Assembly (NCBI GenBank): GCA_021325275.1
Contig: JAJPHL010000054.1
Location: 1-64,000 of the forward strand
Source of the DNA: Terriglobia bacterium
GTDB taxonomy: Bacteria > Acidobacteriota > Terriglobia > JAJPHL01
Reading direction: 5' to 3'
DNA length: 64,000 bases
The notes under the pieces were generated by a model that saw nothing but the letters and a program-made list of their open reading frames with translations, was not told the DNA's origin and ran no database searches. Position 1 is the first letter of the stretch. Every line of letters begins with the position of its first letter. Both the position numbers and the translations under genes were made by a program. Positions 1-27,889 of this stretch are shown here, one piece after another.

Positions 1-362
<362 letters not shown>

Positions 363-490
363 AAGATTTACTCGGAGCATAGGCTTCAAAAACCTACTCC
401 GGGCTTTCCAAGTACTTTTAAGGCAAACTTGTTTGCCAAACCATATTCAGTTCTGATCGCGATAGCTAACGCAATCGCGGTCGACAATTT
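363..490 (+). other. 23S-5S spacer with three hairpins
   Basis: No gene is present. Three inverted repeats are visible: CGGAG/CTCCG with an inner TAGG/CCTA pairing at 373-401, a perfect GGCAAAC-TT-GTTTGCC at 422-437, and CGCGAT/ATCGCG at 458-479. Paired stems in this position are expected substrates for processing of the rRNA precursor. That role is inferred from position only. Confidence 0.6.
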
Positions 491-606
<116 letters not shown>

Positions 607-614
607 ATTAAATC

Positions 615-27684: not shown

Positions 27685-27721
27685 AAAAAACGCAGGCCCG
27701 GGATGCTTTGCATCCCGGGCC
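27685..27721 (-). terminator. Intrinsic terminator of the small transcript unit
   Basis: A perfect 12-bp stem (GGCCCGGGATGC against GCATCCCGGGCC) with a 3-nt loop spans 27695-27721. On the minus strand it is followed by TGCG and six T residues (27690-27685). It lies 29-65 nt upstream of the PQQ-like gene's ATG, so it could also act as an attenuator for that gene. Confidence 0.88.
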
Positions 27722-27784
27722 CGGCAGCCGTGTTGATTTTCCTGAGGGAAACCTCAACAACACGCAGTTACGAGGTCGTCAACC

Positions 27785-27832
27785 TCAAGCCGCAGCTACC
27801 TCACGCGGTTTACTAGGTACATCTAAGGGCAT
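27785..27832 (-). CDS. 15-codon small ORF with a near-perfect Shine-Dalgarno
   Basis: The ORF encodes M-P-L-D-V-P-S-K-P-R-E-V-A-A-A and ends in TGA at 27785. It is preceded by AAAGGAGGT (27846-27838), a nine-base match to the anti-SD, with ideal 5-nt spacing. A consensus sigma-70 promoter lies upstream. A small hairpin (27772-27776 with 27782-27786) covers the stop codon. A larger hairpin follows (27730-27735 pairing with 27758-27763, inner stem 27743-27747 with 27752-27756), and then the terminator. It may be a regulatory leader peptide, a small secreted or toxic peptide gene, or the ribosome-binding part of a regulatory RNA. I recognise no family. Confidence 0.6.
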   Translation of the reverse strand: MPLDVPSKPREVAAA

Positions 27833-27859
27833 GGACCACCTCCTTTCTCGTGTAATTGA

Positions 27860-27889
27860 AATGTACGGCTGGTGCGCGCCGCGTGTCAA
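27860..27889 (-). promoter_or_regulatory. Consensus sigma-70 promoter of the small transcript unit
   Basis: TTGACA (27889-27884), an 18-nt spacer and TACATT (27865-27860) on the minus strand. The predicted start near 27853 leaves a leader of about 20 nt before the small ORF. This is the best -35/-10 pair seen in the window. It is preceded by an A/T-rich patch (27890-27905) that could act as an UP element. Confidence 0.78.

Follow-up and report, generated by a model that had tools for sequence, protein, structure and literature searches.

On the minus strand of the 64,000-nt stretch of Terriglobia DNA analysed here (hereafter, the window), positions 27685-27889 hold a unit with a predicted transcript of ~170 nt and an ORF predicted to encode ~15 amino acids. 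Sequence comparison places this unit, as one of the divergent members, in a widespread RNA family that is old, usually single-copy, and common to acidobacteria, actinobacteria and other phyla. Family members share a sigma-70 promoter, a 16-nt complement of 16S rRNA as Shine-Dalgarno (SD), an ORF of 11-22 codons, a 3' box and, usually, a terminator. Among them RNA structure and translation are conserved, and the peptide hardly at all. The unit is most likely a translation-gated, ribosome-binding small RNA, and we put at about even the chance that it is a gene in its own right, usually present once per genome, whose tiny messenger-like RNA behaves in this translation-gated manner. The promoter, the extended SD, the in-frame short ORF and a covarying long-range helix (H1) are shown by comparison among loci, and the terminator by the window itself; the helix and the frame are what we claim, and translation gating is their likeliest reading.

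Architecture of the unit

A previous reading made from the sequence alone had proposed (positions as found here) a TTGACA-18 nt-TACATT promoter, a near-perfect SD (AAAGGAGGT, 27846-27838) five bases before an ATG at 27832, a 15-codon ORF with a TGA stop (27787-27785), a hairpin across the stop codon, a second hairpin, a GC-rich terminator whose 12-bp stem (27721-27695) precedes six T residues (27690-27685), and a PQQ-like gene whose ATG (27656) lies 29 nt past the T-run. All of these were found where this sequence-only reading had placed them, exact to the base and beyond what chance would give (Table 1). The transcript would start near 27853-27855.

Table 1. Features of the unit in the window.
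Feature	Position	Strand	Basis
-35 element TTGACA	27884..27889	-	sequence; promoter-like pair in family
-10 element TACATT	27860..27865	-	sequence; family position relative to AAGGAGG
Extended SD AGAAAGGAGGTGGTCC	27833..27848	-	16-nt complement (one G-U) of a relative's 16S 3' end
15-codon ORF MPLDVPSKPREVAAA, stop TGA	27785..27832	-	translation; frame kept in family
H1 5' strand GGTAGCTG (end of Glu11, Val12, Ala13, start of Ala14)	27793..27800	-	pairing, covariation
Small hairpin over stop codon, GAGGT/ACCTC	27772..27786	-	sequence
Second hairpin with AAAATCAACA stretch (27740-27731)	27731..27764	-	fold
H1 3' strand CGGCTGCC (3' box directly before terminator)	27723..27730	-	pairing, covariation
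Intrinsic terminator: 12-bp GC stem, AAA loop, TGCG, six T	27685..27721	-	sequence, fold

The RNA folds better than 200 of 200 shuffled sequences (z -3.9). In its predicted minimum-energy fold the 3' arm of the stop-codon hairpin pairs with the SD instead, and in the alignment the AAAATCAACA stretch of the second hairpin occupies the position of AATCCCAACA in relatives. A search of the genome (6.86 Mb) for the SD core plus start, AAAGGAGGTGGTCCATGCC, gave a single occurrence, even with 3 mismatches allowed, and 100 shuffles of the window gave none.

Promoter-like pairs with a score of at least 8 precede 91% of the 77 loci of the Acidobacteriota set and 44% of all 193 loci, against 1.7% of controls. 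The -10 element of the family usually ends 12-13 nt before AAGGAGG, the distance between promoter and SD being fixed. Downstream, a crude test detected terminator-like stems at 27 of 59 loci and at 10 of 59 controls.

Distribution of the family

The sequence-only reading would have been abandoned had the unit not been conserved in relatives; conservation was found by BLASTN, by pattern search and by covariance model. BLASTN against 60 relatives returned four matches, spanning the SD and the ORF, and a pattern combining the SD with the ORF box was present in 31 of 399 genomes of the class, while the reversed control gave none. When named genomes were scanned with a pattern, the matches listed (at least 120) were mostly from Actinomycetota, and also among them were three Zixibacteria/GN15 MAGs, one Spirochaetia MAG, one Acidobacteria gp4 MAG and one Proteobacteria-labelled MAG. 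The exact pattern was unmatched in viral contigs, where we had looked for carriage by phages.

Of 299 genomes of the class, 193 were matched at E<=0.01 by a covariance model built from 40 loci (R1), almost always at a single place; ~30 of these 193 have E values above 1e-4, and some of them may really be the antisense of a 16S rRNA 3' end. In the phylum, which is taken to be Acidobacteriota on the sequence-only reading and the related gp4 MAG, R1 matched 56 of 317 genomes at E<=1e-4, some of them in families that do not belong to the class. In another phylum strong matches were limited to 2 of 247 genomes, and R1 matches of ~18-20 bits were discounted as likely antisense to 16S 3' ends. One locus (L040) was judged a false positive. 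The window itself gives the only match in its genome (E 2.6e-18), a value to be read knowing that its sequence is part of the training alignment; many loci outside that alignment match too.

A long-range helix built partly of codons

From the comparison of loci, H1 emerges as the main conserved long-range pairing of the family, one that is invisible from a single sequence. It is an 8-bp helix joining a segment of the ORF to the box just before the terminator, and all eight pairs form in the window. Across the family, the ORF segment GGUGGCUG and the CAGYYACC box pair at 8 of 8 positions in 135 of 148 loci and at 7 of 8 in 12 further loci, while random 8-mers in the same RNAs do so in 0.5% of cases.

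The helix comes in different versions in other lineages, its two strands changing in concert: GGGUGCUG/CAGYAUCC, GGGAACUG/CAGUUCCC, GGGCCCUG/CAG(U)GGCCC, GGUGACUG/CAGU(U)CACC, GGUGUCUG/CAGA(U)UACC and GGUGCCUG/CAGG(C)CACC, in a survey that mostly took the best-pairing downstream site and is biased toward pairing to that extent. The window has the version GGUAGCUG/CGGCUGCC, with compensatory changes, and two further versions, GGUGGUGAC/GUCACCACC and GGUGGUGUC/GACACCACC, were read by eye at single loci. In the model alignment columns of 100 loci, five of the eight pairs show two-sided changes. The covariation score of H1 is 0.274, compared to 0.131 (sd 0.010) for shuffles, none of 500 reaching it, and to at most 0.093 when the helix is slid. 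H1 is in this way backed by covariation in R1; since the alignment was fitted to H1 (misplacing some boxes) and contains related rows that inflate the counts, support for the helix rests on the independent sequence versions. In one lineage (f5) the placement of the 3' box is unreliable.

Folding of naked RNA gives H1 a mean predicted probability of 0.59 over 170 RNAs and of 0.29 in Acidobacteriota members. For the window RNA the prediction is ~0.03-0.3 depending on the ends folded; the most stable fold masks the SD, and forming H1 would cost ~4 kcal/mol there. Over the family as a whole, blocking the SD raised the predicted probability of H1 by a mean of 0.06 (p 0.014), an effect so small that it lends little weight to a two-state switch, and a switch driven by SD blocking was set aside on these grounds. 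Neither the 5' leader nor the SD pairs with the variable middle clearly more than in shuffles when all loci are taken together (mean z 0.50 and 0.37, respectively). Two lineages, L022-L036 (f4) and L214-L233 (f5), display leader/middle-loop pairings (CGCUAG/CUAGCG and CACUG/CAGUG) that would form a pseudoknot, a pattern devoid of significance in the whole set.

Conservation of the frame and near-neutral change of the residues

In the 29 acidobacterial loci first read, all had an ORF of 13-18 codons starting 6-12 nt after GGAGG and sharing its end position. In actinobacterial loci the ORF ends in E-V-A-[AV]-x, mostly with a TAG stop. In the larger set, 102 loci have an ATG, and in 98 of them the first such codon shares the frame of the conserved GAG. 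The ORF frame is free of stops in 192 of 192 loci, versus 77 and 1 for the other two frames, and as loci were scored by possessing such an ORF, the first-ATG count is the fairer figure. Start, stop and frame are kept through indels in multiples of three. A few loci (L158, L063 and L120) seemingly start at ATT or have a start choice that the scan did not resolve.

Amino acids behave differently. Pairwise comparison of the variable part of the ORF gave an omega of ~0.8-1.05 (pairs are not independent): amino-acid change is close to neutral, and the reading frame is conserved. Glu is found in all loci scored, the scan itself having required it, and is often followed by Val-Ala; the residues after it vary when H1 varies (V/G, then A/T/S/P/V). 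The composition is hydrophilic and rich in Ser, Arg, Thr and Cys. Over the whole family the GC3 of the variable part is 0.33, with AGT, TGT and CGT as the commonest codons, in genomes that are mostly GC-rich; a start region free of structure, or the use of slow codons, may lie behind this low GC3.

Complementarity to 16S rRNA

The remark that the SD region mirrors the anti-SD end of 16S rRNA holds as complementarity: 16 bp with one G-U form against the 16S 3' end of a relative (G041, GGATCACCTCCTTTCT). With this relative's 16S the window SD gives a duplex of -28.2 kcal/mol; 40 long ORFs in the window average -9.3. The 16S of the host, 3' end included, was looked for and is absent from the assembly, so for the host itself we infer this complementarity. 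The contig opens inside a 23S rRNA followed by a 5S (window 1-607, plus strand). Across the family the duplex averages -29 kcal/mol (range -19 to -30.5). Among the loci of group f10 (L198, L199, L196, L202 and others), some read AAGGAGGATGGTCC or AAGGAGGGCGATCC, which puts an additional base into the 16S complement, and retain the rest of the unit.

Alternative roles of the unit

Among the three roles that the sequence-only reading had offered, a regulatory RNA that loads ribosomes fits best. From the nearness of the PQQ-like ATG, one could suspect a leader or attenuator acting in cis on that gene. This has very little probability left: the unit ends in its own terminator, and it is kept while its neighbours differ in every lineage examined, where a cis leader should show conserved linkage to the gene it regulates. 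Neighbouring ORFs, chosen by a simple rule, were a nucleoside hydrolase and the PQQ-like gene in the window, a class IV aminotransferase in mycobacteria, a pyridoxamine oxidase in Streptomyces, a methionine sulfoxide reductase in Micromonospora, and NUDIX, amidohydrolase and other genes in further lineages; on this diversity we rejected the PQQ-like gene as a target in cis. Of the proposed independent small peptide gene, the conserved frame stands, and the near-neutral amino-acid change speaks against the peptide. A functional micropeptide with the consensus ...E-V/G-A-x-x would account for the kept frame, the recurrent Glu-Val-Ala and the hydrophilic composition, but it is highly unlikely given omega, the requirement for Glu in the scan, and the residues after Glu that change along with H1.

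The 16S-tail complement could occupy or protect the anti-SD of free 30S subunits, the ORF being incidental to such a 30S-binding or sponge RNA. The stability of the SD:16S duplex across the family, the strong promoter and the usual single copy per genome argue for it; yet a sponge would not need a frame, start and stop kept through indels in threes, and we hold it to be unlikely. Quite unlikely, in our opinion, is a dual-function RNA that would act in trans, base-pairing with target mRNAs through the AAUCCC loop and 3' box of its 3' half while translation of the ORF regulates or accompanies this pairing. It would agree with the differing neighbours, which leave no target in cis, and with an AAUNCC-CAG element conserved directly before the terminator in several phyla; the 3' box, however, is already accounted for by H1, and what separates AAUNCC from the box is variable among lineages.

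Translation gating as the preferred reading

Under translation gating, the extended SD would recruit the 30S subunit. H1 begins at least 20 nt past the start codon in most loci, which would make initiation compatible with a closed H1, and elongation not. An initiation complex could sit next to the closed helix, and a translating ribosome would have to melt it, halting just inside the fold. The RNA would consequently be open when translated and closed when not, and its stability, or else the accessibility of its 3' box to a trans-acting partner, would depend on ribosome loading. What is conserved would be the act of translation, more than the peptide. A frame that is kept around a near-neutral peptide makes this a testable claim: the function would be translation of the RNA, not its product.

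A broader version, which we regard as possible though rather unlikely, takes the ribosome as the input of a sensor in a single ancient family that would unite the acidobacterial units with Ms_IGR-5 and possibly with CC2171/rreB. Once captured by the 16-nt SD, a 30S subunit would either rest beside the closed helix or translate a disposable ORF and open it. If true, the RNAs of this family would report ribosome availability to the cell.

Relation to known RNAs

At its own cut-offs, Rfam has no match at the unit, and the sequence-only reading had recognised no known family. The latter does not hold: a permissive scan gave a full-length collinear match to RF02471 (Ms_IGR-5; model 1-184 of 184, 39.2 bits, E 6.4e-8). 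The gathering cut-off of RF02471 is 45 bits, so the unit is a relative of Ms_IGR-5 and not a formal member; it also resembles the small mRNA rreB. Three MAGs outside Actinobacteria (Zixibacteria, GN15 and Proteobacteria-labelled) exceed this cut-off, and RF02471 gives sub-cut-off signal in Caulobacter and Thermus controls.

Ms_IGR-5 is typed by Rfam as an sRNA ('Actinobacteria sRNA'), with an ORF unmentioned in the entry or in the papers found, which assign no role to the RNA. Actinobacterial loci of the kind have the same SD as the window, an in-frame ORF ending in E-V-A-[AV]-x and H1; the window differs in its GGUAGCUG/CGGCUGCC helix and in its TGA stop. Ribosome footprints in M. abscessus and M. 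smegmatis (PMC4974804) and transcription in Streptomyces (PMC8079986, PMC8780764) support Ms_IGR-5 being a transcribed, ribosome-bound RNA in Actinobacteria. What was known as a common, usually single-copy actinobacterial sRNA now has a conserved ORF and extends into Acidobacteriota and other phyla. Also new is a covarying helix built partly of the RNA's own codons, in several versions, with amino acids changing along.

The Caulobacter sRNA CC2171 (RF01867) gave a weak full-length match (22.7 bits, E 0.003; cut-off 75 bits). Its layout is like that of the window, with GAAAGGAGGUGAUCC, an ORF-like stretch and a helix from there to just before the terminator. The score is far under the cut-off, and the window preserves the aligned helix poorly. 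A literature search on CC2171 found nothing. RF02471 and RF01867 match one stretch full length below their cut-offs, and may belong in one clan.

By analogy, the closest in behaviour would be rreB of Bradyrhizobium, reportedly a small mRNA of ~165 nt with a 14-aa ORF. Its 17-nt SD is reportedly complementary to the 16S 3' end; the RNA is said to bind 30S and to be weakly translated, translation affecting RNA stability. If at least 16 nt of complementarity to the 16S 3' end are taken to mark an SD of the rreB type, that of the window qualifies, forming 16 bp (one G-U) with the relative's 16S. The rreB and rreR RNAs (Hahn et al. 2017, RNA Biol 14:1353, PMID 27834614) belong to Alphaproteobacteria, in a phylum other than that of the window, and by description, on which this comparison is made, their layout is like that of our unit.
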